This document shows positions 1 to 13,399 of a stretch of DNA of 58,299 bases, in pieces. The stretch comes from Labilithrix sp. Its GTDB lineage: Bacteria; Myxococcota_A; Polyangia; Polyangiales; Polyangiaceae. The translations under genes and the position numbers were made by a program. The notes below the pieces were generated by a model. The model was not told the DNA's origin and did not search any database. It saw only the letters and a program-made list of their open reading frames with translations. The stretch's first letter is position 1. Each line of letters begins with the position of its first letter. Where the stretch lies: positions 1-58,299 of the forward strand of contig JAHBWF010000034.1 of NCBI GenBank assembly GCA_019637105.1, given 5' to 3'.

Positions 1-888
1 GAGCTTCTTGAGCAACGGGAGGAGGGCGGGCTCGATGGGGACCTGACGGCGAGCCGCGTTCGACTTCGTGCCCTGGACGGTGATGACGCCGTGCTCGAAG
101 TCGACGTGCGCTGCCTCGAGACGTTCCAGCTCGGAGCGCCGCATGGCCGTGTAGATGGCGACGGCGTAGCAGCGCCGACGCGGAAGAGGGATCTCTTCAC
201 ACGAAAGGAGCTGGCGAACCTCGGAGGGGTAGAGCGCCTCCTGCTCCCGGCTATCCGTCGAGATCGGGGGCTGGACGCCGAAGGTGGGATCCACACGAAG
301 CACGCGGAGATGGTCGAGCTTCGAGGACAGTGCCTCGCGAAAGCCCGACGTGACCTCGGACCAGATGTGGGCCGCCGACTTGGCGGACAGCCCGGCCTTC
401 CGCATCTTGCCGAGCCGTTCTTCACGCTCGACGGCACCTTCGTAGAAACGCATGCGGAGCCGAACCTGATCGTCGAGCTTGGCAACGATGGCTCGGAGGT
501 GCTCAATCGTCACCCTGTTCATCGGGAGGTGCCCGATCTCCGGCTCGATCCAGTTCTTGAATCGGTCACGACGATCGCGAACCGCCGTCTGGGGCTTGCC
601 TCGGTTCTTCCTCCCGACTTCGCTTCGTTCGGCGGCCTCGTGGTACTTGCCGTACCAGGTGGTGACGCTGAGGCAGGGAGGTTCGTTGCTAGCCTTCTCG
701 TCTTCGAGCTTCTGCTGCCCCTTGGCGAGAAGCTTACGTTCGCGCTGCTCGCCCCAACGACGAGCGGCGGCTTCGGTCTTGGCATCGACCACCGTGCGAT
801 CTCGAAGGACGGATCGGTCTGGCCATCGGAAACGGACGACGGCCATGAACTTGCCCGTATTCTTCCACGGGGAGACTCGGACGCTCAT
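1..888 (-). CDS. Tyrosine recombinase (integrase), C-terminus cut by the window edge
   Basis: Site-specific tyrosine recombinase, expected to integrate and excise a mobile element. 296 codons are visible, reading leftward off the window. The N-terminus (SVRVSPWKNTGKFMAVVRFR) resembles the arm-binding domain of phage-type integrases. A SAM-like core-binding domain follows, then the start of the catalytic domain with the first catalytic arginine in YTAMRRSELERLEAAHVD and the following beta strand VITVQGTKSNAARRQVPI. The later His/Arg/Tyr boxes lie outside the window. The ATG at 886-888 sits 3 bases after the stop of the upstream excisionase-like gene, so the two are one operon. Codon third positions are less GC-rich than in the genes beyond 5 kb, which fits acquired DNA. 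Family assignment is firm; element identity is unknown. Confidence 0.9.
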   Translation of the reverse strand, partial: MSVRVSPWKNTGKFMAVVRFRWPDRSVLRDRTVVDAKTEAAARRWGEQRERKLLAKGQQKLEDEKASNEPPCLSVTTWYGKYHEAAERSEVGRKNRGKPQTAVRDRRDRFKNWIEPEIGHLPMNRVTIEHLRAIVAKLDDQVRLRMRFYEGAVEREERLGKMRKAGLSAKSAAHIWSEVTSGFREALSSKLDHLRVLRVDPTFGVQPPISTDSREQEALYPSEVRQLLSCEEIPLPRRRCYAVAIYTAMRRSELERLEAAHVDFEHGVITVQGTKSNAARRQVPIEPALLPLLKKL

Positions 889-891
889 GGG

Positions 892-1143
892 TCACTTCTT
901 CCGGGGCGCGACGAGCCGATCGCGCACATACTGGACACGGCGGCCGGTATACACGACGGAGCCAGCCGGCATCTGGTAGCGCTGGGTTCGCTTCTTCAGT
1001 GCCTCGAGGGTGATGCCGAGCAGGTGCGTGGCCTCCGGGGCGTTGATCAGGAGCGGGCGCTCGCCGCCGTTGCCGTTCGGTGGCGTTGCGGCAGTAGCCC
1101 GCGTGAGCATCCCCGTGAACCCATCGACGCCGGAGAACCGCAC
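892..1143 (-). CDS. Excisionase-like small DNA-binding protein
   Basis: An 83-residue protein (GTG start at 1143; an in-frame ATG at 1110 would give 72 residues). The C-terminal half has the layout of a MerR/excisionase-type winged helix: LLINAPEATHLLGITLEALK (helix-turn-helix), then the wing and basic tail (VYTGRRVQYVRDRLVAPRKK). Proteins of this type direct recombinases toward excision or regulate them. Its stop is 3 bases before the integrase start, so the genes are co-transcribed, which supports the excisionase reading. It could instead be only a repressor of the integrase operon. The N-terminal 20 residues are low complexity and the exact start is uncertain. Confidence 0.65.
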   Translation of the reverse strand: MRFSGVDGFTGMLTRATAATPPNGNGGERPLLINAPEATHLLGITLEALKKRTQRYQMPAGSVVYTGRRVQYVRDRLVAPRKK

Positions 1144-1148
1144 GGTGA

Positions 1149-1394
1149 CGGGCCACTCGCTGTTGGCGGTCGCCGGACGGCGACATTGCGACCTCGGCGG
1201 AGGACAGCCTTTGGCACTTCTCCGAGACGCTTGGACAGCTCATCAAGAAGCACTCGACGATTCTCGGGCACTTCCGTCCCGACTTCGAGGGCTATGCGCC
1301 GTACGCGAAAAACCTCGTCGTCGGAACTCCACCGCTCGAGGACGCCGAACATGGATCGCCCCGTGAGAAAACTGACTCAGCCAGCCTTCGTTGA
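1149..1394 (+). pseudogene. Orphan coding fragment lacking a start codon
   Basis: The plus-strand frame is open from a stop at 1146-1148 to the stop at 1392-1394 but has no ATG, GTG or TTG. The encoded residues look like a real protein rather than a shadow: from 1176 it reads DGDIATSAEDSLWHF, then LGQLIKKHSTILGHF and RPDFEGYAPYAKNLVV, with GC-rich third positions. I do not recognise the family. The simplest explanation is the 3' remnant of a gene truncated when the recombinase module arrived. The competing minus-strand reading of the same DNA has poorer codon usage (CGC GTA CGG CGC ATA). Moderate to low confidence. Confidence 0.35.
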
Positions 1395-1435
1395 ACTCCC
1401 CCGCGTCCACGGTCGCGAAGAGGGGGGGCGTCCGG

Positions 1436-1627
1436 GGTTCTCCCCCTCACAGGTACTAGTGCATCTTACGCGCTTCGTCTGCGTTCACGGGTTCTAGGCG
1501 CAGGTTCTATTTGGGGAGAAGTGGGGTACTCCCGGAGGGCGAACAATAGGCCGTCCCACCAGAGAACGCAGGTTCTCCCCCGGGGGGTCATACAGTTCTC
1601 CCGGCCTGACTTGTTGCTCGCGGTTCT
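1436..1627. repeat. Cluster of GGTTCT-type short repeats upstream of the HTH-ART operon
   Basis: This non-coding stretch, between the leftward xis-int operon and the rightward HTH gene, repeats the core GGTTCT at 1436-1441, 1490-1495, 1503-1508, 1571-1576 and 1622-1627, with a variant AGTTCT at 1594-1599. Two copies share the longer word CGCAGGTTCT (1499-1508, 1567-1576), and GGTTCTCCCCC occurs at 1436-1446 and, nearly identical, at 1571-1581. The inverse word GGGGAGAA appears near 1513. Arrays of this kind are typical of operator clusters or iteron-type replication origins. Which of the two applies cannot be told from sequence alone. Confidence 0.5.
1562..1577. promoter_or_regulatory. Palindrome GAGAAC-N4-GTTCTC, putative operator
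   Basis: A perfect 6-base inverted repeat, GAGAAC GCAG GTTCTC, lies 68 bases before the start of the winged-helix gene. It is embedded in the GGTTCT repeat cluster. A site of this size fits a dimeric helix-turn-helix protein; the first gene of the operon encodes one, so autoregulation is a natural inference. Confidence 0.4.
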
Positions 1628-1645
1628 TGCGCGTATCTGTTTCGT

Positions 1646-2323
1646 ATGCGGAAGGCGAAGCAAGCTGCGAAGAGCGGCTCGACAAAGAAACTGAAGCTGC
1701 CACGGAAGTCGGTAACCGTGGCGGGGGCTCAGCGCTCGATCCCGAAAACAGGAGCATCGCGCGCGACGTCGACGTCGACGTCGACGTTGCCTCCGCACGC
1801 GGCACCCCCAGTTACCGCTCCGACTCCGGACCTCGCGGACAAGGACGACGGCGCACCGGAGCCCCGCACCGCGATGGCGAAGCTGAAGGCACGGTGGGGC
1901 GTCCCGGCTATCGACGCGGGATGGACCGCGCTGCCCTCGGTTCTGCTCGAAAAGCAGGCAGCTCTTCAGCTCGACCCAACGGACATCAACATCATTCTCC
2001 ACATCGCGAAGCACTGGTGGGAAGCGGATCGGCACGCTCACCCGTCGAAAGGAAGTATCGCAAAGGCGATGCAGGTCTCGCCTCGCCACATTCAGAAGCG
2101 GATCAAGGCGCTTGAGGAGGCGAAGTTCATCAAGCGGATCCCTCGGTGGAACGAGAAGGGCAGTCTCTCGTCCGAGTACGACCTGTCTGGTCTCGTGAAG
2201 GCGGTTGAAGGGTTCGCGAAGGAGGCCCTGATCGAACGGGCTGCGAAGAAGAAGATGACTGCCGAACGCATTCACCGAAAGCGTCCGAAGGTTGAGCACG
2301 GAGGGGAGGCAGAAAACTCGTGA
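1646..2323 (+). CDS. Winged-helix (HTH_36-like) protein, putative replication/regulatory protein
   Basis: A 225-residue protein. Residues 1-75 are basic and low complexity, including a Thr-Ser repeat encoded by (ACGTCG)n around 1765-1785. Residues about 90-165 form a winged helix of the HTH_36 type seen in plasmid and phage replication proteins: GWTALPSVLLEKQAALQLDP, then NIILHIAKHWWEADRHAHPS and the recognition helix SIAKAMQVSPRHIQKRIKAL. The C-terminus is Lys/Arg-rich. The stop overlaps the next gene by 4 bases (GTGA at 2320-2323), so it heads a coupled operon with the ADP-ribosyltransferase-fold gene and its partner. It may regulate the operon through the upstream repeats, or replicate the element; the sequence does not decide. 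Confidence 0.75.
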   Translation: MRKAKQAAKSGSTKKLKLPRKSVTVAGAQRSIPKTGASRATSTSTSTLPPHAAPPVTAPTPDLADKDDGAPEPRTAMAKLKARWGVPAIDAGWTALPSVLLEKQAALQLDPTDINIILHIAKHWWEADRHAHPSKGSIAKAMQVSPRHIQKRIKALEEAKFIKRIPRWNEKGSLSSEYDLSGLVKAVEGFAKEALIERAAKKKMTAERIHRKRPKVEHGGEAENS

Positions 2324-2892
2324 AGTACGACCGAACTGTCGTCGCCTACCACGGTTGCGATGCCGAGGTTGCCGAGACGATCCTCCGCGGCGAGGCCACG
2401 TTCAAGAAGAGTCAGAACGCGTACGACTGGCTCGGCGCGGGCATCTACTTCTGGGAATACGGAGCAGATCGCGCTCTCAAGTTCGCCCATGACCAGAAAC
2501 GTCGGGGCAAGGTGAAGACCCCCGCCATCGTGGGAGCCATCATCCAGCTCGGGAACTGCTTCGACCTGATGGACACGAAGTTCACCGACGAGCTTCCAAC
2601 AGCATTTGCCATGCTGAAGAAGCTCCACCGAGCGATCGGGAGCCCCCTCCCGAAAAACCGCGGAAAGACGCCCGACAAAGAGCTGCGGCTCCTCGACTGC
2701 GCCGTTCTGAACCTCTACCTGCAACACGTCAAGGACGACCAGGGCATCGACTACAACACCGTGCGGTGCGGCTTCGTGGAGGGACCACCCGCCTTCCACG
2801 GCAGCCGGATACGGCATCAGAGCCATGTTCAGCTTGCCGTTCGCACCCCCGCTTGCATCGTCGGCGTCTTCCGGCCACAATCTTGGGAGTGA
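2320..2892 (+). CDS. PARP-like ADP-ribosyltransferase-fold protein (putative toxin/effector)
   Basis: 190 residues, GTG start overlapping the previous stop. The sequence shows the H-Y-[QE] layout of the ADP-ribosyltransferase superfamily. A YHG motif carries His11. LGAGIYFWE carries Tyr43 and strongly resembles the PARP GKGIYF segment. A C-terminal strand, SHVQLAVRTPACIVGVF, offers Gln171 as the third position. I recall this layout (YHG ... YDWLGxGIYFWE ... HIQ-AVR-P-CI-G-F) from uncharacterised bacterial proteins, but I know of no biochemical study. Family knowledge would predict NAD-dependent modification of a protein or nucleic acid. The gene is coupled by GTGA overlaps to a DNA-binding protein upstream and a 70-residue protein downstream, on a recombinase-bearing island. 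Toxin or defence effector is an inference; the fold call is fairly secure. Confidence 0.7.
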   Translation: MKYDRTVVAYHGCDAEVAETILRGEATFKKSQNAYDWLGAGIYFWEYGADRALKFAHDQKRRGKVKTPAIVGAIIQLGNCFDLMDTKFTDELPTAFAMLKKLHRAIGSPLPKNRGKTPDKELRLLDCAVLNLYLQHVKDDQGIDYNTVRCGFVEGPPAFHGSRIRHQSHVQLAVRTPACIVGVFRPQSWE

Positions 2893-3101
2893 GCAAGGCG
2901 AAGGACCGACTCGATCCGAACGCTCCTGGTCTCGACGAGATGACCCGGAAGCGGCGTCGTGCGCTTGTCTCGATGCAGAAGATGAGTACGGAGGAGCTTT
3001 TGCAGCTTGCCGTCCGCGCGGGCATCTACACCAAGAAGGGCAAGCTCACGAAGCCCTACCGTAAAAACGGCGAGCCGAGCGCGTCCGGGCCGTCGAGCTG
3101 A
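2889..3101 (+). CDS. Small partner protein of the ART-fold gene (putative antitoxin)
   Basis: 70 residues from a GTG at 2889 that overlaps the upstream stop by 4 bases (GTGA). The frame is open further upstream, but only this start fits translational coupling. The protein is basic and helical: an Arg/Lys-rich segment (MTRKRRRALVSMQKMS), then a compact motif ELLQLAVRAGIYTKKGKLTK and a polar tail. I recall the AVRAGIYTKxGKLT motif from other small mobile-element proteins of unknown function. Size, charge and coupling fit an antitoxin, chaperone or specificity subunit for the ADP-ribosyltransferase-fold protein. No function is established. Confidence 0.65.
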   Translation: MSKAKDRLDPNAPGLDEMTRKRRRALVSMQKMSTEELLQLAVRAGIYTKKGKLTKPYRKNGEPSASGPSS

Positions 3102-3267
3102 TCCCTCTCCGAGACGATCGGAAGCGGAAGCGCCGTGAGGTTCGACGGGGAAACGAACTCTCGACCGGACCGTCCTCCGCGAATGCAGTTCGGGGAGGAG
3201 CCAGTTGTCGTTTCTCCACGCCCGGCTCGTCGGCGTTGACGGTCGCCTGAGCTAGGCAAATGCTGTC

Positions 3268-3702
3268 GTGGTGCCAGTCACGACGGTGTTCAAAGACAGG
3301 CTTCCAAAAAATGTCGGCTTCTCCGTCGGCGCCGCCGCGCTGAACGAGATCCTCCGGAACGCCAACGCGGCCGTCTACTTCGTGAACTCGTCTACCTGGG
3401 TGAGGCAGGCGGCTCCGCTGACCAGACCCAAGCTGCCCTTGCTCCGGTGGCAGCGGCAACGGCCTCGACTCCGCGTAGGGAACGAGCGCGTTCGCGACAT
3501 GCCGGAGGACTGTGGCCTCTACATCCTCGTGTACGCGGTGCCGTCGACGGTGAAGCACGATGCCTATGCTGCCCTCGTGGCTTCGGCCTCAGCGTGGTTG
3601 CCGACCTCGAAAGACGCGTCTACCCGAGAAGGCGCCTTCGTCGAGTTCTCCACGTCGAACGCCAGGGGCTCCGTCACGCACGTGCTGCCGAACTGGTGGT
3701 GA
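3268..3702 (+). CDS. Hypothetical protein, 144 aa
   Basis: The only possible start in this frame is a GTG at 3268 (stop at 3253-3255), with no convincing ribosome binding site. Codon third positions are strongly GC-rich and the protein looks natural: VTTVFKDRLPKNVGFSVGAA near the N-terminus, AAVYFVNSSTWVRQ, and a hydrophobic strand DCGLYILVYAVPSTVKHDAY. There are no signal peptide, membrane segments or recognisable motifs. It stands alone, 166 bases after the ART operon, so it may or may not belong to the same unit. I do not recognise the family. Confidence 0.5.
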   Translation: MVPVTTVFKDRLPKNVGFSVGAAALNEILRNANAAVYFVNSSTWVRQAAPLTRPKLPLLRWQRQRPRLRVGNERVRDMPEDCGLYILVYAVPSTVKHDAYAALVASASAWLPTSKDASTREGAFVEFSTSNARGSVTHVLPNWW

Positions 3703-3902
3703 CGGGGTGTCGCCGTTCCGTTGGCTCCATATTGGCGCGACACCCGGCCCATCCGGTCCCTCGCTGTCCTGGCCGGTCCCTTCGCCGACAAGCACGATCG
3801 CCCGAGAAAACGGCCGCTTCGTGCGTTCTCCAGCTCATAGGGACGCCGCGAAACAGGCCGGCTCGCCTTCAAGTCCCGGTTGGCCCACCAGCTTCGCATC
3901 CG

Positions 3903-3936
3903 AAAAAAGCCCTTCCGTGTCATCGCGAAGGAAGGG
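3903..3936 (-). terminator. Rho-independent terminator of the decayed recombinase
   Basis: On the minus strand, CCCTTCC pairs perfectly with GGAAGGG (7 bp, 3930-3936 and 3910-3916, 13-base loop). A run of six T follows at 3908-3903. It lies 37 bases past the stop of the degraded tyrosine recombinase on the same strand, as expected for that gene's original terminator. Confidence 0.6.
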
Positions 3937-3972
3937 GGGGACATGAGGGGGCACGACGCTCCCTCTTCGCGT

Positions 3973-4330
3973 TTAAGCCGTCCGCTTCGTGGAGGGCAGG
4001 TGCACGAGCTTGGCCCCGCCAAGGACGCTGGCCGGCAGGGGCCGGATGCGGCGTGCCGAACTTCGCGCTCACCGACGCCGCCTTCCCCAAGTACCTGCGG
4101 GGCATGGCGACGTCGAAGAGTCCGCACGGTGAGGAGGAAGAGCTGGCTCTTCTCCGCGACAGCCCAGTGCGTGATCGCCGGATGCCGCGTGTCGTGGACG
4201 TTGAACGGCATTACGTGGGCGTCGTCACGGTAGAGCGCTGCTTTGATGATGCAGCGGCCTCGGCTCCGGCGGCTAGCGGCGCTCGTCGCCGGCCGGAACA
4301 GCTGAATCGAGCGTGTCGGGCGGTGGTCCT
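3973..4330 (-). pseudogene. Decayed C-terminal part of a second tyrosine recombinase
   Basis: The reading is spread over three minus-strand frames. First frame (about 4330-4105): LYRDDAHVMPFNVHDTRHP then ITHWAVAEKSQLFLLT, containing an H-x-x-R box typical of tyrosine recombinases. Second frame: DVAMPRRYLGKAASVSAKFG, with the Tyr of the RYLG box. Third frame: LPASVLGGAKLVHLPSTKR, ending in TAA at 3973-3975. At least two frameshifts separate them, and the expected G-H-T/S-D box has become GLFD, so the product cannot be active. A terminator follows. It is unrelated in position to the intact recombinase at the left edge and suggests an older insertion in the same place. Confidence 0.6.
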
Positions 4331-4367
4331 CCCCTTGCACGTCCCACGTTCGGAGAGGAGTCGACCC

Positions 4368-4658
4368 ATGGCCGGAGACGTCGAAGAACAACAAGCACGA
4401 GAGCAGACCGAGCATCGCACCGAGACCGAGGACATCGGTTCGCCGATCTCGAACGAGGCCTACAACGTGATCACCGCGTTGCAGGCGAAGCTCGAGGGGC
4501 TCGAGGCGTATCGCAAGTACGCGAAGGACGGCGATACGGAGCTTTGGCGCGAGCTCACGCGAAACGAGGTACAGCTCGTCTGTCGACTCGTCGACAAGCT
4601 CGAAGCGCTCGTCAAGGCGGGCGAGCTTCGGATGAAGGAGCCAGGCGATACCCACTGA
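4368..4658 (+). CDS. Conserved-looking 96-aa protein of unknown function
   Basis: ATG at 4368, with an excellent ribosome binding site (GGAGAGGAG, 4351-4359) that fixes the start although the frame is open much further upstream. The N-terminus is acidic and Gln/Glu-rich. The body is helical and coiled-coil-like: NEAYNVITALQAKLEGLEAY, ELTRNEVQLVCRLVDKLEAL, then a short tail. No Cys, membrane segment or signal peptide. I do not recognise a named family. Placed at the right end of the accessory region, just past the recombinase remnant, it may belong to the island or be the first host gene. A soluble helical adaptor is the most that can be said. Confidence 0.7.
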   Translation: MAGDVEEQQAREQTEHRTETEDIGSPISNEAYNVITALQAKLEGLEAYRKYAKDGDTELWRELTRNEVQLVCRLVDKLEALVKAGELRMKEPGDTH

Positions 4659-5252
4659 GTCGCGTGAGAGCTGAGGTGCGCGCGAGCCGTCGCTCGCAGC
4701 CTTCGTTCTCCGGCGATCCGGCTCCGGCGTGCCGGTCGGGACAGCGAGGCGCGCCGCCCGAGCGCGTCGGACGGCACGCATTCGCTTGCAGAGGGCTCGA
4801 TCCCGAACGCTCGCAGAGGGCTCGGGTCCGAACGGAGAGCTGGGTGAACGAGCAGCCAGAGGTCCCCATTCGGATCGCGATCGAGCTCGAGGAGGTGATG
4901 GAGGACGAGGGGCGCGTCGAGGCGGGAGAGACGCGACGGAGTCGGGATGGTTCCACAAACCAAGTGTCCCGAGCGTTCGGGGCGGACATGAGAAGCGTCG
5001 GCGCGGCCTGCACTCCGTGACGCGAACGGCACGTCGCTCATCGGGACAACGAGCGTCGCGGAGCGTGCCCGACGCGGATCGTAGGACTCCCGCGGCTTCG
5101 CGCGCGCTCCAGCATTCGTTGGGACGCCGCACGGCCAGCTCCACTCGAGTCCGGTCGGCCTATGGGGTTCGACTCGGAAACGAGCTTTCGCTTGAGAGCT
5201 CCGCGGAGCGAGCCGTGACGGTAAGCGTCTCTGCTCGGAGCGCGCCGCGCGG
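4659..5252. other. 594-base stretch with no convincing gene
   Basis: Between the 96-residue gene and the end of coq4. Several frames stay open because of GC content but give Arg/Ser-rich shadow products. The only mildly protein-like piece is a plus-strand frame from a GTG at 4842 to 5020 (VNEQPEVPIRIAIELEEVME, then a poor tail), possibly a relic. A two-copy 25-base tandem repeat lies at 4785-4834. Confidence 0.5.
4785..4834. repeat. Tandem duplication, 2 x 25 bp
   Basis: Positions 4785-4809 and 4810-4834 are adjacent copies differing at four positions; both contain GCAGAGGGCTCG and end CCGAACG. No gene covers it convincingly. Confidence 0.6.
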
Positions 5253-5969
5253 TCAGGCCGCTGCGTTGAGCTCGGAGCTGCGGATCTTCGTATAGACCGG
5301 CGGAGCGCCGAGGGAGAGGCGCGCTCGAACGTCGGAGAGCGGTTGGGCGAGGAGCGCGTCCCAGTCCTGGCCGGGGAGCCACGCCGCTCTCCGGCCGCGT
5401 CGGAAGCCGTCGAGGATCGTCCGGCGCGCCGCTCGGCCTCGGTCCGCGCCGCTCGTGGTCTTGCTCAGCCCGATCACGATCACGAGCGCGATGGCCGGGT
5501 TCCAGGTCTGGGCGAAGGAGAAGGCGAGCAGCGCGGTCTCGCCGAGGACGTCTCCCGAGTAGCCGGTCGCGGCGTGCCAGAGGTCGTGCGTGTCGCGCAT
5601 CCAGCGGTGGACCCACGCGAGGTCCGGAGGGAGCGAGACCTCGTTGGTCATCCCGATCTCGCTCGCCGCGCGGATGCCTTCGGCGGAGATGTTCTCGCGC
5701 TCCACGAACGCGAGGTACGCGCGACCGAGCGATCCCTCGGGCAGGCGCGCGAGCGCCGCGCGATCGGCGAGGCGCTCGACGATGTCCGGCCGCGCCTCGT
5801 ACAGGCGGCGGCCCGCGTCGCTCGACTGCATCCGGCGCGCGACGCGGGCGAGCGTGTCCCAGGAGAGCGACTCGATGATCGTGAACACCTGCGGCAGGTC
5901 GTCGGGGTCCGCGGCGAGGATGCGGGCGGCGCGGAGGGCACGGCGAGGCTCGAACTGGACGTGGCGCAT
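5253..5969 (-). CDS. coq4: Coq4 family protein (ubiquinone biosynthesis)
   Basis: 238 residues, ATG at 5967-5969. Coq4 is a scaffold or enzyme of ubiquinone assembly in eukaryotes, with many bacterial homologues. The diagnostic motif HDxxH-x11-E is present: HDLWHAATGY followed by Glu in VLGETALLAF. A hydrophobic segment near TWNPAIALVIVIGLS follows. Length matches the family. The gene is divergent from a TetR regulator, and a TGACA-N4-TGTCA palindrome lies 24 bases upstream of its start, overlapping a TTGACA hexamer that could be its -35 box. Control by that regulator is the obvious inference. Bacterial Coq4 proteins are not all proven to act on quinones. Confidence 0.85.
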   Translation of the reverse strand: MRHVQFEPRRALRAARILAADPDDLPQVFTIIESLSWDTLARVARRMQSSDAGRRLYEARPDIVERLADRAALARLPEGSLGRAYLAFVERENISAEGIRAASEIGMTNEVSLPPDLAWVHRWMRDTHDLWHAATGYSGDVLGETALLAFSFAQTWNPAIALVIVIGLSKTTSGADRGRAARRTILDGFRRGRRAAWLPGQDWDALLAQPLSDVRARLSLGAPPVYTKIRSSELNAAA

Positions 5970-5992
5970 GGCACTCTGACGATGACCGATAC

Positions 5993-6006
5993 TGACAGAC
6001 TTGTCA
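5993..6006. promoter_or_regulatory. Palindrome TGACA-N4-TGTCA between coq4 and tetR
   Basis: A perfect 5-base inverted repeat, TGACA GACT TGTCA, sits in the divergent intergenic region. On the minus strand it overlaps TTGACA (6008-6003), a consensus -35 hexamer facing coq4. The layout suits a TetR repressor that blocks coq4 and possibly itself. Binding is inferred only. Confidence 0.5.
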
Positions 6007-6056
6007 ATTGTGGCCATACGCTTGTCGGCGACGGGCGGGCGCGCGATGCTGAGCCC

Positions 6057-6812
6057 GTGCGGAGGCGCGAAGGGACGAGACCCGCGGTCGCGCGCGGGAC
6101 GCGCGGGAGAGGACGCCCGCGGGCCGCGAAGGCGGGCGACGCCTCGAAGGCGACCGGCAAGGCGTCGCCCGCGGACGGGACGGCCTCGGAGCCGCGCGCG
6201 AAGCCGCCGCGGAGGCGCCTCGACGCCGCGACCGCGCGCGCGCGGATCCTCGACGCGGCGGAGAAGCGGCTCGTGGTCGTCGGGCCCTCGGGCATCCGCC
6301 TCCAGGACGTCGCGGCCGACGCGGGCATCGCGCACCCGACCGTGCTCCATCACTTCGGCAGCCGCGAGCAGCTCGTGCAGGAGGTCATCGCCCGCTCGCT
6401 CGGGGCGATCAACGCCGCGCTGGTCGAGGCGATCCGCGCGTCGAACGGGGGCGAAGCCGAGCTCGAGTCGCTCCTCGAGGACGTCGCCGAGACGTTGAAG
6501 CGGACCGGCCACGGACGCGTGATCCTCTGGCTCGCCCTCGAGGGGCACCCCTTCTACGAGGGCGACGTGAGCCTGACCGACATCGTCGAGGCGACGCACA
6601 CGTTGAGGCTCGCGCGACGGACCTCGAAGGCGCGGCCTCCGCGCGTGGACACGGCGCGCCTCGTGGTCCTCGCCGCGCTCGTCCTGGTCGGCGGCTCGGT
6701 GCTCGGGCCGACCATGCTCGCGAAGGCCGGCCTCGACGGTCCCGGTGCCGAGGCCGGCTTCCGCCGCTGGCTCGCCCGCCTCCTGGTCGAGCACCTCGAG
6801 CACGGAGGCTGA
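6057..6812 (+). CDS. TetR family transcriptional regulator
   Basis: 251 residues from the GTG at 6057. The upstream in-frame ATG at 5982 would place the palindromic operator inside the coding sequence, so the later start is preferred. After a basic, Arg/Ala-rich 60-residue extension comes a TetR N-terminal domain: ARILDAAEKRLVVVGPSGIR, then LQDVAADAGIAHPTVLHHFG with the usual recognition helix and the conserved HHFGSREQLV turn. The C-terminal ligand domain is all-helical and ends in a hydrophobic segment (LVVLAALVLVGGSVLGPTML) plus an amphipathic helix. Divergent from coq4; likely controls coq4 and itself. The ligand is not predictable. Confidence 0.85.
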   Translation: MRRREGTRPAVARGTRGRGRPRAAKAGDASKATGKASPADGTASEPRAKPPRRRLDAATARARILDAAEKRLVVVGPSGIRLQDVAADAGIAHPTVLHHFGSREQLVQEVIARSLGAINAALVEAIRASNGGEAELESLLEDVAETLKRTGHGRVILWLALEGHPFYEGDVSLTDIVEATHTLRLARRTSKARPPRVDTARLVVLAALVLVGGSVLGPTMLAKAGLDGPGAEAGFRRWLARLLVEHLEHGG

Positions 6813-7030
6813 CGGACGCGCGACGGTCGTACACGCCGCGCCACGCGCTTCTTCCGCTCGCGCGTCCGGGCGCGGGCGCTCACGCCGTTTCGGGGCGTGA
6901 ACCGTGGGGATGCGGCGGCCATGCGCAGCCGGCTTCGAGGCCCCGCGACTTCCCGCTGGCGGCGCGCGACCGCTCTGTGCGTCAATGACGTCAGGTTCGG
7001 CCCGCCGGGTCTCGCGAGGAGGCAGCAACG

Positions 7031-8257
7031 ATGAACACTCGACCCACGGTTTCTCTCCTGCGCGTGCGCCGACTCGCTCACGGAGGCGGCCTCGCGTTCG
7101 CGCTCGCGGCGCTGTTCGCGGCCGCGTGCTCGTCGAGCGACGAAGGCGGCGTCGCGCCGTCGCCCGACGCGGGCGGCGACGACGCGGCCTCGCCGTCGCC
7201 CGACGGGGGCGCGGCCGACGGCGACGGCGGAGCGGACGGCGCGAGCGACGGCGGGGACGCGGGAGCCACCACGCCGCTCGACCTCTCGGCGGTCGCCGAC
7301 AGGACGTGGGCGTGGTTCGAGATCCCGGGGGCCGTCTGCCGCGACGGATCGCCCACCGGCATCGGGCTGAACCTGAGCGCGCCGTCCAAGAAGCTGATGA
7401 TCTTCCTCCAGGGCGGCGGCGCCTGCTTCAACGCGCAGACGTGCGCGAACAACCCGTCGGCCGTCGGCGCCAAGAGCGGATCGGGCGGGATCTTCAGCCG
7501 GAGCAACCCCGAGAACCCGATCGCCGACTGGAACCACGTCTTCGTCCCGTACTGCACGGGCGACGTCCACGCGGGGAACGAGCCGAACGGCGACGTCGCG
7601 GGCGTCGGCCCGCAGAAGTTCGTCGGCTACGCGAACATGGAGCTCTTCCTGGCGAAGCTCGCGGCGACCTTCCCCGACACCGAGCAGATCCTCGTGACCG
7701 GGACGAGCGCCGGAGGGTTCGGCGCCGCCGCCAACTACGGCCACGCCCTCCGCTGGTTCCCCACGATCCCGGTGAACCTCGTCGACGACTCGGGGCCGCT
7801 GATGCGCCAGCCGCCGCTCGCGCGCTGTCTCCAGGACCGCTGGAAGACGCTGTGGAAGCTCGACTCGACCGTCATCGCCGAGTGCGGAGCCGACTGTACG
7901 AACCAACCCGACTTCCTGATGGCGGCTTCGAAGCACTGGGCGTCGACCAAGTCGACGCTCGCGCAGGGCCTCGTCTCCGCCACGGGGGACGCGACGATCC
8001 GCGCCTTCTACGGGTTCGGCGCGTCCGAGTGCACGAGCTTCGCGCTCGTGTCGGAGAGCGACTTCGCGGCGGGCCTCACGGACATCCGCACGGAGAGCGC
8101 CGCGTACTCGAACTTCGGCACGTACACGTACGGCGGGACGCGCCACACGCTGCTCGCCGGGGACGTCTTCTATTCGACCACGCTCGGCTCGAAGACCGTC
8201 GCCGCGTGGGTCAAGGACATCGTCGACACCAACACCGTCACGAACGTCGGACCGTAG
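7031..8257 (+). CDS. Pectin acetylesterase/Notum-like lipoprotein
   Basis: 408 residues. The signal peptide ends in a lipobox (LFAAAC, Cys about 35), followed by an Asp/Gly/Ala linker to about residue 80, so the protein is exported and probably anchored in the outer membrane. The rest matches the pectinacetylesterase/Notum (PAE) alpha/beta hydrolase family: KKLMIFLQGGGACFNAQTC near the start, the nucleophile elbow GTSAGGFG (Ser about 226) and a C-terminal His in GGTRHTLL. Several Cys pairs fit disulfides. Family members remove acetyl groups from pectin (plants) or palmitoleate from Wnt (animals); the bacterial substrate here is unknown. The ATG follows GAGGAGGCAGCAACG, a good ribosome binding site. 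Confidence 0.85.
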   Translation: MNTRPTVSLLRVRRLAHGGGLAFALAALFAAACSSSDEGGVAPSPDAGGDDAASPSPDGGAADGDGGADGASDGGDAGATTPLDLSAVADRTWAWFEIPGAVCRDGSPTGIGLNLSAPSKKLMIFLQGGGACFNAQTCANNPSAVGAKSGSGGIFSRSNPENPIADWNHVFVPYCTGDVHAGNEPNGDVAGVGPQKFVGYANMELFLAKLAATFPDTEQILVTGTSAGGFGAAANYGHALRWFPTIPVNLVDDSGPLMRQPPLARCLQDRWKTLWKLDSTVIAECGADCTNQPDFLMAASKHWASTKSTLAQGLVSATGDATIRAFYGFGASECTSFALVSESDFAAGLTDIRTESAAYSNFGTYTYGGTRHTLLAGDVFYSTTLGSKTVAAWVKDIVDTNTVTNVGP

Positions 8258-8370
8258 CCCGTCGGGCGCGCTCGAGCCTCCTCGCTCGGGCGTCGCGCCG
8301 GGGCTCCTCGCGCGGGGGACGGCGATCGCGTCCGGGGGGGCGCCGCCTCGCCGACGCTCCGCCCGCGAGG

Positions 8371-9813
8371 TCAGCTCGCCTGGCCGTCGCGACGCGGCTC
8401 GAGGCCCTCGCGCCGGCGCGTCTCGCGGACGGCCGCGCGGTGCCGTTCCGCGAGGACGCGCGAGATCGAGACCGCGTAGGTCGCGCGGGGCTCGTCCGGC
8501 GCGATCGCGCGGAGCTCGGCGGGCAGGCGCGCGACCTCGGCGGCGTGCGCGGAGCGAAGCTCGGCGAGCCGAGGCCGCCGGAGCGCCCGTCCGTCGGAGA
8601 CGACGGGCTCGAGCAGCGGCTCCCAGTCACCCGACGTGGGCGCGGGCTCGTCGAGCGCGGCGATCCGGTCGGCCACGAGCCGCCCGCCGGAGTCGCGCCG
8701 TCGCCAGACCTGCTTCGGCCCCACGATCGTCGCCTTGCCGGCGCTGAGCTTCAGGCAGGGCCTGCCCGCGTACGCGACGATCTTGTACGCCATGTCGAGG
8801 ACCGGCGCGTCGGCCGACATCCCGACGCGGGTGCCGACCCCGAAGCCGTCGATCGGCGCGCGAGCCCGGACGAGCCTGTCGATGGCGTACTCGTCGAGGC
8901 CGCCGCTCGCGAAGATGCGGACGTCGCGGAGGCCGGCGTCGTCGAGGAGCTGCCGCACCGCTCGGCTGAGCGCCTCGAGGTCGCCGCTGTCCAGGCGCAG
9001 GGACGCGAGCGCGCGCCCTTCGCCGCGCAGGCGCCGCGCGAGCTCGATCGCCCTGCGCGTCCCGCTCAGCGTGTCGTACGTGTCGACGAGGAGCGTCAGC
9101 GGTCCGACCGTCGTGCGGGCCCACGCCTCGAACGCGGCGCGCTCGTCGGGCATCGCCTCGATGAACGCGTGCGCGACGGTCCCGCTGGCGGGGATGCCGA
9201 GCCGCCTGGCGGCGTGGACGTTGCTCGTGCTCGCGAACCCCGCGAGCCAGCAGGCGCGCGCCACGTCGACGCTCGCGTCGATCCCGGGCGTGCGCCGGAG
9301 CCCGAAGTCGACGAGCGGCCTCCCGCCCGCGACCGCGACGCACCGCGCGGCCTTGGTCGCCACGAGCGTGGGGTAGTGGATCGCGTTGAGGATGAGGCTC
9401 TCGGCGAGCTGCGCCTCGATGATGGGGGCGTCGACCTCGACGAGCGGCTCACCCGGAAAGACGACGCGGCCCTCCCGGACGGCGCGGACGTCTCCCGTGA
9501 AGCGGACGCGCGCGAGGGCGTCGGCTTCTTCGGGGCGGACGTGTCCGGTCGTGACTAGGTAGTCGATCCCCTCGTCGTCGAAGCCGAGCCGCTCGAGGCG
9601 CGCGAGCGCGTCCTCGAGGCCGGCCGCGACGAGGAACGACCGGTGCGCAGGCAGCTTGCGGACGAACAGGCTGAACGTCGCGCGGTCGTGCATCCCGAGC
9701 CGGTGGTAGCTCGCCGCCATGGTGAGCTCGTAGAGGTCCGTCACGAGCCCGAGCCTGCGCTCGACGGCTCGTCGTCCCAGGGCGCTCGACCGCCCGCCGT
9801 CCGTCGACGTCAT
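8371..9813 (-). CDS. pncB: Nicotinate phosphoribosyltransferase
   Basis: 480 residues, ATG at 9811-9813. Converts nicotinate and PRPP to nicotinate mononucleotide (NAD salvage). Family signatures: GLVTDLYELTMAASYHRLG at the N-terminus, RSFLVAAGLEDAL, the PRPP/nicotinate site region VDFGLRRTPGIDAS, then ASTSNVHAARRLGIPASGT, SLRLDSGDLEALS, IFASGGLDEY and DGFGVGTRVGMSADAP. Length is typical of the bacterial class. It lies 37 bases downstream of the small Cys-rich gene on the same strand, so the two may be co-transcribed, and next to universal stress genes on the other strand. Confidence 0.93.
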   Translation of the reverse strand: MTSTDGGRSSALGRRAVERRLGLVTDLYELTMAASYHRLGMHDRATFSLFVRKLPAHRSFLVAAGLEDALARLERLGFDDEGIDYLVTTGHVRPEEADALARVRFTGDVRAVREGRVVFPGEPLVEVDAPIIEAQLAESLILNAIHYPTLVATKAARCVAVAGGRPLVDFGLRRTPGIDASVDVARACWLAGFASTSNVHAARRLGIPASGTVAHAFIEAMPDERAAFEAWARTTVGPLTLLVDTYDTLSGTRRAIELARRLRGEGRALASLRLDSGDLEALSRAVRQLLDDAGLRDVRIFASGGLDEYAIDRLVRARAPIDGFGVGTRVGMSADAPVLDMAYKIVAYAGRPCLKLSAGKATIVGPKQVWRRRDSGGRLVADRIAALDEPAPTSGDWEPLLEPVVSDGRALRRPRLAELRSAHAAEVARLPAELRAIAPDEPRATYAVSISRVLAERHRAAVRETRRREGLEPRRDGQAS

Positions 9814-9850
9814 GGCGCGGCCTCGATGCAAGACGGCCGCCCCCGCGGGC

Positions 9851-10057
9851 TCAGACCGCCGCGCGCGGGCGCTCCACCGTCGGGGCGAGCCCCTTGCGAA
9901 GCTCGAAGCGCTTGCATCCGCACGTGCCGAAGACGCGAAGCTCCAGCTTCGCGAGCCCCGGCTCGTCGCAGGCCGCCTCCTCTCCGTCGAGCGGCGCCGC
10001 GGCCGGGCTCGCGAAGTACTTGCAGTGTGAGCAGTGTCCCCAGCTGTTCCGTGCCAT
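9851..10057 (-). CDS. Small Cys-rich protein, possible metal-binding
   Basis: 68 residues from the ATG at 10055-10057. It starts MARNSWGHCSHCKYF, has a Cys at about 30 (EEAACDEPGLAKLEL), and another pair in VFGTCGCKRFELRKG, giving five Cys arranged like a small zinc ribbon or iron-binding knuckle. I recall similar 65-70-residue proteins in deltaproteobacteria and myxobacteria without an assigned role. It is divergent from the universal stress gene at 10190 and upstream of pncB. Function unknown. Confidence 0.65.
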   Translation of the reverse strand: MARNSWGHCSHCKYFASPAAAPLDGEEAACDEPGLAKLELRVFGTCGCKRFELRKGLAPTVERPRAAV

Positions 10058-10189
10058 GACTCCTCCGTCTCGCTGCGATCCCGAGATGCGTGTCCTGGCC
10101 GTCCGAGGTGCAGAGCGCGTGCCGAAGATCCGCGGCGCGCTGGACGAGCGCGCGGCGCAGGCGGCACGCATGATGAATGGTGACGGCGT

Positions 10190-10666
10190 ATGAAGCGGAT
10201 CCTCGCGGCGGTCGATCTGACGTCGACCGCGCACCTCATCATTCGACACGCGGTCGAGCTCGCGCGCTCGATGGGCGGGAGAGTCCGGCTCCTCCACAGC
10301 GTCGTGATCGCGCCGCAGGTCCCGCCGCCCGGCGTGTTCGTTCCGCTGACCTCGTTCCGAGCGCACGAGCTCGCCGACGCCGCCAGGACGGCGATGGAGA
10401 GCTTGGAGGAGTCGATCCCTCGCGAGCTCCGCGACGGCGTCGTGGTCGAGATCGGCCACGCGGCGGATTGCGTCTGCGAGGCGGCGCGCGCGTACGACGC
10501 CGACGTCGTCGTCATCGGGGCCCACGACTACGGGCTCATCTCCCGCGCGCTGGGCACGACCGCGGCGCGCATCGTCAACCGGATGGATCGTCCCGTCTTC
10601 GTCGTCAGGCCCATGCCGACGAGCCACGTCGTCGAGCCCGAGCCCGTCAGCGCGAAGGCCGGCTGA
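10190..10666 (+). CDS. Universal stress protein (UspA family)
   Basis: 158 residues. The N-terminal strand MKRILAAVDLTSTAHLIIRH is the classic Usp opening. The C-terminal part has ADVVVIGAHDYGLISRALGT followed by TAARIVNRMDRPVFVVRPMP, a slightly changed form of the ATP-binding G-2x-G-9x-G(S/T) motif (here GAHDYG...LGTTA). Usp proteins bind ATP or AMP and respond to stress. A second Usp gene follows after 75 bases, then a sensor kinase, so the three may form one stress-response unit. Confidence 0.88.
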   Translation: MKRILAAVDLTSTAHLIIRHAVELARSMGGRVRLLHSVVIAPQVPPPGVFVPLTSFRAHELADAARTAMESLEESIPRELRDGVVVEIGHAADCVCEAARAYDADVVVIGAHDYGLISRALGTTAARIVNRMDRPVFVVRPMPTSHVVEPEPVSAKAG

Positions 10667-10741
10667 CGACCCGTCGCTCTCGTCGCTCTCGAGCGAGCGT
10701 CTCGTGTCCTGGTGCGAGGGCACCGAACCCGGAGGTCAGCC

Positions 10742-11185
10742 ATGACGAAGTTCGCCAACATCCTCGTCCCCGTCGACTTCGGCGCGCCGTCCAGACGAGG
10801 CCTCGAGCTCGCGGTGGACCTCGCTCGACGGAACGGCGCGAGGCTCACGCTGCTCCACGTGTTCGACGTCCCCGTGTCGTACGCGGGGATGGGGCTCTCG
10901 CCGACGGAGCTCCTCGCGCCGATGTGGGACGCGGAGCAGGAGGAGCTCGACCGCGTCCTCGCGAAGGTTCGTGACGAGATCCCCGAGGTGTCCCGCGAGA
11001 CGGCGCGGGGCGTCCCGTGGCGAGAGATCCTGGCGTTCATCGAGCAGCGCCGCCCCGATCTGGTCGTGATGGGGACGCACGGTCGTCACGGCGTACCGCG
11101 CGCGCTGCTCGGCAGCGTCGCGGAGAAGATCGTCCGGCTGTCGCCCTGCCCGGTGCTCACCGTTCGCGCGGAGGACGAGGCATGA
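10742..11185 (+). CDS. Universal stress protein (UspA family)
   Basis: 147 residues; the ATG at 10742 follows a GGAGGT ribosome binding site. NILVPVDFGAPSRRGLELAV at the N-terminus and VVMGTHGRHGVPRALLGSVA at the C-terminus give the complete G-2x-G-9x-G-S nucleotide motif, so this copy should bind ATP. The stop overlaps the start of the following histidine kinase by 4 bases (ATGA), implying translational coupling of a stress protein with a sensor kinase. Confidence 0.92.
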   Translation: MTKFANILVPVDFGAPSRRGLELAVDLARRNGARLTLLHVFDVPVSYAGMGLSPTELLAPMWDAEQEELDRVLAKVRDEIPEVSRETARGVPWREILAFIEQRRPDLVVMGTHGRHGVPRALLGSVAEKIVRLSPCPVLTVRAEDEA

Positions 11186-13365
11186 CGCTGGGCGCCCGCC
11201 GCGAGCCCGAGCGCCTCCCCTCCGAAGCGAGCCTGCTCGCGGACCTGCTCCGTCGGCTCGGCGAGCGGTCCGCCGATCCGCACCGGCTCGCCGCCGGCGC
11301 GATGGAGGCGCTCGCGGCGGCGCTCGGCGCTCCGTGCGCGCTGGTCTTCGCGGTCGACCCGACGGACGCGCTCCGGCTCGTCGGGGCGCGGGGGATCGAC
11401 GCCGAGCTGGAGGCGCGCGTCTCCTCGCTCGCGTTCGACGGTAAGGAGCTCGCCGCGGAGTGCGTGGCGACCGGAGCCGCCCTGCGGATCGACGCGGCGG
11501 GCGCGAGGGCGGAGACGGACCGAGCGATGGCCCGCCGCGCGCGGGCCGAGCAGCTCCGCGCCGTCCCGCTCGTCGCGGACGGGGTGACCCTCGGCGCGCT
11601 CGTGTTCGCGACGAGCCGCGCCGCCGATCCGGGGCCACGCCTCGAGGCGGCCGCCGGCGCCGTCGCGCTCGCGCTCGCCGCCGCGCGCGCGCGGCGCATC
11701 GGATCGCTCACGCACCACAAGCTCGACCGGACCCTCGGCGCGATCCACGAGCTCGGGCGCCGGCTCGCGCGCGTCCCGCAGTCCCCCGTCAGCGCGTTCT
11801 CGGCCCCGCTCGACGACGAGGCCGCCTTCGACGTGCGAGCGTTCTTCGCCGAGCTGGCCGAGCAGGTGCGCGATCTCGTGGGCGCGGAGATGGCGGCGGT
11901 CGGCGTCGGCACGTGCCCCGAGCGGACCTTCGACCCTTGGGTCGCCGTCGGCGTGCCGGAGGGGATGGAGCGCGCCGTCGGCCGGCATCCACGCCCCGTC
12001 GGGACGCTCGGCGTCGTCGCGGTCGGGGGAGCGACGGTGCGCTTGCGCGACGTCCGAGAGCACCCGGCGTTCGTCGGCATCCCGCCCGAGCACGCCGACA
12101 TCCGGAGCTTGCTCGCGGTCCCGCTCTCGACCGGCGAGGAGAGCGTGGGCAACCTCTACCTCGCCAACAAGCGCGGGGGCGAAGAGTTCGACGAAGCCGA
12201 CGAGAAGACCGTCGAGATGTTCGCGACCCTCGCGGCGAGCGGGTTCAGGCTCTCCACCCTGCTGCACAGGAGCGAGCACGACCGGAGCAGGCTGATCCAG
12301 ATCATCGCCGCGGAGCCCGACGGCGTCGCGTTCGTCGACGCCGCGTCGGGCTGGATCCTGGCGAACCGCGCCTTCGAGGACCTGCTCGGACGGCGCGTCC
12401 GGCCCGAGGAGGGCGCGAGGCAGGAGCTCGGCGTCGTCTGCCGTCCCGACGGCAGCGCCCTCGAGGCCGACGACCTGGCGGCGGCGCGCGCGCTGCGGGG
12501 CGAGACGACGTCGCGGGACGACCTCCTCCTGGTGCGCCACGACGGCACGCGCGTCCCGGTCGCCGAGCGCGGCGCGCCCGTCCGGAGCGCCGGCGGGAAG
12601 CTGCTCGGCGCGGTGGTCGTCCTTCGAGACGTCTCGCTCCAGAAGGAGGTGGAGAGGCTGCGCGAGGAGTTCGCCGCGATGGTCGCGCACGACCTGCGGA
12701 ACCCCATCCAGTCGATGCTCCTCCAGCTCGAGCTCTTGCGGAGCGACGCCGAGCAGGGGAAGCCGACGTCGGACGCCGCGCTCGATCGCCTCGATCGGAT
12801 CGGCGCGCGCCTCGCGCGGATGGCGGGCGATCTCCTCGACACCACGCGGATCGAGCTCTCGCGCGTCCCGCTCTCGCGCGTCCCGCTCGACCTCGCGGAG
12901 GCGACCCGGGCGCTGGTCGACCGCGTGCGAGCGACGATCGGGGATCACGCGATCGAGGTCCACGTGACCGGACCGCTCGAGACCGCGCTGGTCGACCCGA
13001 CGCGGTTCGACCAGGTCCTGACCAACCTGCTCGAGAACGCCGGCAAGTACTCGGCGAGCGGGACCACCGTCGAGGTCGAGGTCCGGGCGGTCGACGACGG
13101 CGTCGAGATCGCGGTGACGGATCGAGGAGCGGGCATCGCGCCCGACGAGCTCCCCAAGCTCTTCGACCGCTTCTACCAGGCGCAGCGCGCCCGAGAGCGG
13201 AAGAGCGGCCTCGGGCTCGGCCTCTACATCACGAAGGGCTTCGTCGAGGCGCACGGAGGGCGCATCGACGTCGAGAGCGCCGTCGGCCGAGGCAGCACCT
13301 TCCGCGTGTGGTTCCCTCGCGCGCAGCCCGGCGCCTCTCCCTCGCGCGATCGACCGGCGGCGTGA
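11182..13365 (+). CDS. GAF-GAF-PAS sensor histidine kinase
   Basis: 727 residues with no membrane segment, so a cytosolic sensor. The N-terminus (to about 175) and residues about 200-400 look like two GAF domains; the second has RSLLAVPLSTGEESVGNLYL. Residues about 370-480 form a PAS domain (AFVDAASGWILANRAFEDLL). The dimerisation domain carries the phospho-acceptor His in AMVAHDLRNPIQSML (about 501). The ATPase domain follows with LTNLLENAGKYS, DRGAGI and GLGLGLYITKGFVEAHGG. No receiver domain and no adjacent regulator gene. It is coupled by overlap to the upstream universal stress gene, which suggests a redox, gas or energy stress input; the ligand is unknown. Confidence 0.92.
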   Translation: MTLGARREPERLPSEASLLADLLRRLGERSADPHRLAAGAMEALAAALGAPCALVFAVDPTDALRLVGARGIDAELEARVSSLAFDGKELAAECVATGAALRIDAAGARAETDRAMARRARAEQLRAVPLVADGVTLGALVFATSRAADPGPRLEAAAGAVALALAAARARRIGSLTHHKLDRTLGAIHELGRRLARVPQSPVSAFSAPLDDEAAFDVRAFFAELAEQVRDLVGAEMAAVGVGTCPERTFDPWVAVGVPEGMERAVGRHPRPVGTLGVVAVGGATVRLRDVREHPAFVGIPPEHADIRSLLAVPLSTGEESVGNLYLANKRGGEEFDEADEKTVEMFATLAASGFRLSTLLHRSEHDRSRLIQIIAAEPDGVAFVDAASGWILANRAFEDLLGRRVRPEEGARQELGVVCRPDGSALEADDLAAARALRGETTSRDDLLLVRHDGTRVPVAERGAPVRSAGGKLLGAVVVLRDVSLQKEVERLREEFAAMVAHDLRNPIQSMLLQLELLRSDAEQGKPTSDAALDRLDRIGARLARMAGDLLDTTRIELSRVPLSRVPLDLAEATRALVDRVRATIGDHAIEVHVTGPLETALVDPTRFDQVLTNLLENAGKYSASGTTVEVEVRAVDDGVEIAVTDRGAGIAPDELPKLFDRFYQAQRARERKSGLGLGLYITKGFVEAHGGRIDVESAVGRGSTFRVWFPRAQPGASPSRDRPAA

Positions 13366-13399
13366 TCTCCGCCGAAGGCGCATCGCCATCCGGCTCGTA

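Follow-up and report, generated by a model that had tools for sequence, protein, structure and literature searches.

A predicted CmdT-related ADP-ribosyltransferase and its small partner as a putative chaperone-free toxin-antitoxin-like module in Labilithrix sp.

Introduction

Which of three overlapping genes near the end of a Labilithrix sp. contig belong together, and what might they do? The stretch of DNA analyzed here (58,299 nucleotides, JAHBWF010000034.1; hereafter the window) belongs to an 8.45-Mb genome that is 91.5% complete; it corresponds to contig C263 there, and window base 1 is contig base 1. A preliminary description had read the plus-strand genes at positions 1646–3101, joined by two four-base overlaps, as a toxin-antitoxin or anti-phage module consisting of a winged-helix regulator, a protein with an ADP-ribosyltransferase (ART) fold, and a small partner. 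The open reading frames (ORFs) and the sequence itself bear out three plus-strand genes that share GTGA at both junctions (2320–2323 and 2889–2892). The functional unit, in our reading, is smaller: we consider it fairly likely that positions 2320–3101 hold a chaperone-free, two-gene toxin-antitoxin-like module, i.e., an ART of the CmdT superfamily together with a partner that restrains it.

Results and discussion

A predicted ADP-ribosyltransferase related to CmdT

The ART-fold gene (2320–2892, plus strand), a predicted CmdT-like toxin gene, encodes 190 amino acids (aa) and has its GTG start in the stop of the preceding gene. AlphaFold2 predicts an ART fold with a predicted local distance difference test (pLDDT) score of 93.8, and exotoxin A, PARPs and NatT are among the best fold matches of this model in Foldseek and VIA, exotoxin A being the top Foldseek match and the ten best Foldseek matches sharing 8–18% identity with it. 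All three motifs on which an H-Y-Q arrangement had been proposed are present, i.e., YHG with the proposed catalytic histidine H11 (codon 2350–2352, plus strand; model strand 6–14), GIYFWE with the proposed catalytic tyrosine Y43 (2446–2448, plus strand; model strand 41–46) and HVQLAVR with Q171 as the proposed third residue (2830–2832, plus strand; model strand 169–174). When 57 family members and 16 CmdT proteins are aligned together (73 rows), the H11 column holds histidine in 56/57 family rows (one gap) and 15/16 CmdT rows (one glutamine), the Y43 column tyrosine in every row of both groups (57/57 and 16/16), and the Q171 column glutamine in 56/57 family rows (one histidine) and all 16 CmdT rows. 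These alignments support H11-Y43-Q171 as the putative catalytic triad, and together with the model and its fold matches they uphold the ART assignment made earlier. Another residue, E154, lies just beyond a model strand; it shows no variation within the family but does so in CmdT.

The family has no model of its own in Pfam or NCBIfam; among its 57 members (profile A4), five match the Pfam family PARP and one matches Exotox-A_cataly. A search of the window's genome found a single ART gene copy. Sequence matches to solved structures were taken as chance, whether the query was the single window protein (plant receptor kinases, best 0.0024) or profile A4 (aminotransferases, best 0.06), and apparent fusions of the ART to longer proteins at two loci (L114 and L122) were set aside, as their long frames resemble, by eye, stop-free readings of GC-rich DNA.

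By sequence comparison, the closest characterized relative found is CmdT of the CmdTAC system (PD-T4-9). The PADLOC CmdT profile PD-T4-9_A matches the window protein at 7.4e-5 and all 57 A4 members at E ≤0.1 (best 8.1e-8), and HHalign relates the family to 16 CmdT proteins with 95.8% probability over 59 columns; these proteins come from 16 CmdTAC loci in 2/274 gammaproteobacterial genomes, 3 plasmids and 11 viral contigs. CmdTAC is described as an mRNA ADP-ribosyltransferase toxin acting with an antitoxin and a SecB-like chaperone (PMC11618068, PMC9519451), and for CmdT the published account gives a triad HY-[E,D,Q], a requirement of Y41 for defence, and as target the N6 of adenine at GA in single-stranded RNA (PMC11618068). 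The window protein is similar to CmdT in size and carries H, Y and Q in the CmdT columns, and the motifs YHxC and WLxxGxYFW match between CmdT and the window's family. In both cases a small gene adjoins the toxin gene and copies are found on plasmids and viral contigs; the window's toxin family, however, forms a separate branch in a tree. In the control genome of Methanocaldococcus jannaschii, the CmdT profile PDLC04069 was matched at E ≤0.01 and not at stricter limits.

A small partner gene kept in three arrangements

The partner gene (2889–3101, plus strand), a predicted antitoxin gene, starts with a GTG within the ART stop codon and encodes 70 aa, including the previously noted AVRAGIYTKKGKLT and, toward the C-terminus, the motif AGIYTKKGKLTKPYR (A44–R58; 3018–3062, plus strand), which is conserved among 60 partners and in which G45 and G51 are conserved in at least 90% of them. 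We take the 70-aa frame as coding because differences across 64 codons are biased by codon position (10/9/27 against the homologue in genome G006 and 14/12/30 against that in G056) and because homologues lie beside the ART genes of relatives. Six plasmid loci have a gene of 56–76 aa immediately 5' of the ART gene, and the proteins encoded there end in L..AGI....GkL...Y, as does the 70-aa protein of the window.

Two hidden Markov models (HMMs), one from 33 upstream partners and the other from 18 downstream partners (window included), were kept separate to limit circularity and used to scan 11,461 six-frame segments from 87 loci (the window, 80 genome loci and 6 plasmids) at E ≤0.01. The upstream HMM found the window's partner at 1.2e-6 and partners at 31 of 39 loci with a downstream or convergent arrangement, and the downstream HMM recovered 31 of the 41 upstream loci. 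Altogether, a partner homologue is adjacent to the ART gene at 80/87 loci (41 upstream, 33 downstream, and 6 downstream and convergent), leaving seven with none. This count includes L053, where a match bearing the motif pattern lies directly behind the ART gene, scores as misses the small motif-bearing ORFs under the cut-off at L027 and L060, and contains partial matches within longer frames at L122 and L123; with the exception of a second partner copy in L072, all matches were located by ART genes. Further loci (ART E <1e-30, identity <95%, repeats removed) gave a partner in 45/51 cases, i.e., 24/25 in genomes and 21/26 in viral contigs; L129 and L209 (with partner matches), L130, L131 and L134 (of a three-gene type) and L138 (no partner) stand outside this count. 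Co-occurrence of the two genes had been chosen beforehand as the observation on which the pairing should stand or fall, and the ART-plus-partner family is, on these two counts, well supported as real and widespread. A small protein gene kept beside a predicted toxin gene is also a trait of type II toxin-antitoxin systems. Since the partner stays constant across three gene orders, it appears to form a functional pair with the ART and not to be an operon hitchhiker. Some loci carry more than one copy: L014 (= L109) and L110 have a single ART gene followed by two partner genes in tandem, and one contig (G646 C104; L117/L137) has two neighbouring ART-partner pairs plus a fragment match, with five matches in that genome.

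The partner family has no equivalent in Pfam or PADLOC. Comparison of the 60 partners with Pfam (E ≤0.5, 25 best families listed) gave no macrodomain, NADAR or Xre-type match, and the HTH (helix-turn-helix) matches were unconvincing. AlphaFold2 gives the window's partner a helical structure of moderate confidence (pLDDT 76.3), which has four matches in the PDB, none of them significant (best E 5.8). Homology with CmdA, suggested by a two-helix likeness seen by eye, was rejected, as HHalign gave 0.6% and E 0.1 for the 60 partners versus 12 CmdA proteins. In contrast to CmdA, the window's partner has neither such a profile relation nor an LAA addiction tail, ending instead in GPSS; the partners of L002 and L083, however, end in AAAA, which counts against the family as a whole lacking a CmdA-like tail. 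Another difference from CmdTAC is the variable placement of the partner gene, which may precede the toxin gene, follow it or converge on it.

We suggest that the partner acts as an inhibitor of the ART. It could instead be a folding or specificity factor and not (only) an inhibitor, in the way that CmdA serves CmdT, which is described as insoluble and non-toxic alone and as requiring CmdA to accumulate (PMC11618068). Conservation of the partner in three arrangements fits any obligate complex, including this one, but no relation between partner and CmdA was found, and folding factor and antitoxin are not exclusive roles; we regard this alternative as unlikely, if deserving of some weight.

Absence of a chaperone gene and three bridge loci

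An HMM for the chaperone CmdC, trained on the SecB-like genes present at the 16 CmdT loci and recovering 16/16 of them, matched none of the 87 family loci at E ≤1 (locus stretches were searched, some of them short) and nothing at E <0.01 in 31 viral loci, and the window's genome, at its 91.5% completeness, gave no Pfam match to SecB (PF02556). Thus, the module is not a CmdTAC, lacking the CmdC-type chaperone at the loci examined, though the plan of the toxin seems to be the same.

Among the further genome loci, only L130, L131 and L134 (Myxococcota genomes G454, G610 and G462) match the CmdC HMM. Their ART matches both ART HMMs and is followed by a protein of 154–166 aa and then by the CmdC-HMM-matching protein of 142–144 aa, which scores 6.8e-6 to 7.6e-5 in a small ORF set and 7.8e-4 to 0.0087 in a larger one. 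The middle protein weakly matches the CmdA HMM in two loci (0.0051 and 0.022) and not in L130, and the partner HMM gave no match at E <0.1 in any of the three. In L130, the ART frame falls short of the length seen in L134 and appears interrupted, and Pfam recognizes neither of the two non-ART proteins of this locus. These loci are likely, though not certain, to be three-gene operons of a bridge ART, an antitoxin-like and a SecB-like protein, and are likely intermediate, as a chaperone-containing form, between CmdTAC and the family of the window.

Comparison with other ART systems

Exotoxin A/diphtheria-type and PARP ARTs belong to the H-Y-E class, with which the window protein shares the fold and the His-Tyr arrangement; it differs in having Q as the proposed third residue in place of E and in being a stand-alone protein of 190 aa with an adjacent partner. 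DarTG and DarT-NADAR likewise place an ART toxin beside a partner gene, as the window does, but the window's partner has only 70 aa and matches neither macrodomain nor NADAR, and reversal of the mark is therefore an unlikely mode of action for it. RES-Xre systems (NatRT and MbcTA) combine an ART-like fold with a two-gene toxin-antitoxin setting. The RES toxins NatT and MbcT destroy NAD+, and the window's ART might do the same and leave macromolecules unmodified, with the partner still an antitoxin. NatT and MbcT have the highest VIA Z scores (8.4 and 8.0), and Foldseek also lists NatT, at 0.017; the RES profile matches none of the family's 57 members, and the partner has no Xre-type match. We hold NAD+ destruction to be improbable.

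The winged-helix gene and the surrounding element

The gene in front of the pair (1646–2323, plus strand) encodes a 225-aa winged-helix protein with HTH_36/DnaD_N-like matches in Pfam (5.7e-10 and 5.6e-9) and matches to replication-initiator families in PHROG. A three-gene unit with this protein as its dedicated regulator, as the preliminary description had it, finds a parallel in G056, where the ART gene is again preceded, with the same four-nucleotide overlap, by the gene of an HTH homologue (55% identity across 141 columns) that has a comparable repeat stretch (judged by eye) on its 5' side and an integrase nearby. However, only two of the four close loci (window and G056) have the winged-helix gene in this place; it is occupied by a serine recombinase (named by eye) in G002 and, in G006 (L139 8945–11976), by an ABC-F-type ATPase (by eye) whose stop codon embeds the ART start, the GTGA overlap being kept in both. 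Thus, overlap with unrelated upstream genes is seen in 4/4 close loci, but is not a rule of the wider family. Among 184 genomes of this order, with ≤16 candidates scored in each, three were found to have a homologue of the winged-helix protein, the window's own genome being one of them. In another, G933, the gene of the HTH_36/DnaD_N homologue (31% identical; L178 1241–1962) precedes a ParE-like toxin gene, which it overlaps by four nucleotides. A serine-recombinase-like ORF (named by eye) lies near that G933 locus.

The six plasmid loci are equally varied: the nearest annotated genes 5' of the partner (the gene tables are incomplete) are AbiEii, a group II intron reverse transcriptase, FRG and an HNH endonuclease and, at two further loci, traR and a DNA methyltransferase on the opposite strand. 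Given such variation and the replication-initiator matches in Pfam and PHROG, a dedicated regulator seems a poor prospect, and that part of the earlier reading is not supported; the winged-helix gene probably belongs to the element, encoding a replication initiator or a regulator, and is not a constant part of the pair. In G006, the last codons of the ABC-F-type gene differ from those in seven same-genus genomes and similarity ends there. We rejected this point as the boundary of a cassette insertion: the sequence behind the gene varies in cassette-free genomes too and, therefore, the end of similarity marks no insertion site.

Upstream, on the minus strand, lies a tyrosine recombinase/integrase gene (1–888; Pfam Phage_integrase 1.7e-8), which is incomplete, with its 3' part lost, because the contig starts at window base 1. 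Adjoining it is a small excisionase-like ORF (892–1143, minus strand, 83 aa). The recombinase noted earlier was thus recovered, while the excisionase has a PHROG match at E 0.18 only and no match in Pfam. The ART-partner pair is located beside these genes and probably sits on an integrative element, for which no borders were found. Five same-strand GGTTCT repeats (1436–1627, plus strand), out of 11 plus-strand copies in the 58-kb window, precede the winged-helix gene and are possible operator or iteron-like sites. No Rfam family was matched at gathering scores in positions 1–15000, and no sigma-70-like promoter was found in 1100–3300. On the 3' side of the pair, an ORF of 144 aa (3268–3702) weakly matches PHROG 27777 (6.9e-4).

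Distribution and phylogeny

The ART family is present in genome contigs of many phyla, on plasmids and in viral contigs. Within one class, 5/369 genomes (centre included) have a family match versus 2/274 for CmdT, and the viral scan gave no relative with the window protein alone as query and 31 loci with profile A4. A quick tree of 96 rows (without L010, L019, L048, L057, L067, L071, L079, L081 and L083), rooted by midpoint only and with L053 labelled as partner-less, places the convergent loci in a single clade (support 96) and the upstream loci in one 39-row clade (100), the two other rows of which lack a partner. Downstream loci, window included, are scattered over the remainder, and five arrangement labels require 7 changes on this tree versus a mean of 49.2 when shuffled. 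The 16 CmdT proteins separate (99) on a long branch, and the two bridge proteins that were placed have a very long branch and join the tree on the window family's side. Going by titles and abstract openings, we found no publication on the ART-partner family.

A counter-defence role, i.e., an AcrIF11-like anti-CRISPR ART with a small associated regulator, has a precedent in a reported ART anti-CRISPR (PMC12421852) and would agree with relatives on viral contigs and plasmids, but is very unlikely given the partner's lack of a convincing HTH match, the convergent orientation that is also kept, and the occurrence of the family in genome contigs of many phyla.

Proposed mechanism and significance

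Overall, we consider it probable that the ART-partner family constitutes a toxin-antitoxin system, related to CmdTAC but lacking its chaperone. We postulate that the 190-aa ART would use NAD+ at its H11-Y43-Q171 site and modify a target within the cell; a nucleic acid is the most likely candidate, and the analogy with CmdT would favour RNA. NTGA overlaps are common operon junctions and unremarkable alone; here, stop-start coupling could allow the 70-aa partner to be made from the ART transcript, whereupon it would bind and restrain the toxin without the aid of a SecB-like chaperone. The pair would be expressed from whichever gene it follows, and might contribute to maintenance of the element or to defence against phages. 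A more far-reaching proposal, which we put forward tentatively, is that of an unnamed, widespread family of chaperone-free systems in which the toxin ADP-ribosylates mRNA and blocks translation and the partners make up a new antitoxin family of ~50–100 aa, CmdTAC and the Myxococcota operons being chaperone-dependent branches of one superfamily with it.

The use of mRNA ADP-ribosylation in defence is known from CmdTAC (PMC11618068). If the family described here acts in the same manner, such toxins would be commoner than CmdTAC alone suggests and would need no chaperone sensor. The two-gene pairs, the Myxococcota bridge operons and CmdTAC offer a natural series in which to follow gain or loss of chaperone control and phage sensing and, if the mRNA-toxin reading is true, toxin-antitoxin and toxin-antitoxin-chaperone forms of the same toxin would become directly comparable. 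Finally, a candidate inhibitor of 70 aa, kept in three gene arrangements, may provide a compact starting point for studies of ART inhibition.
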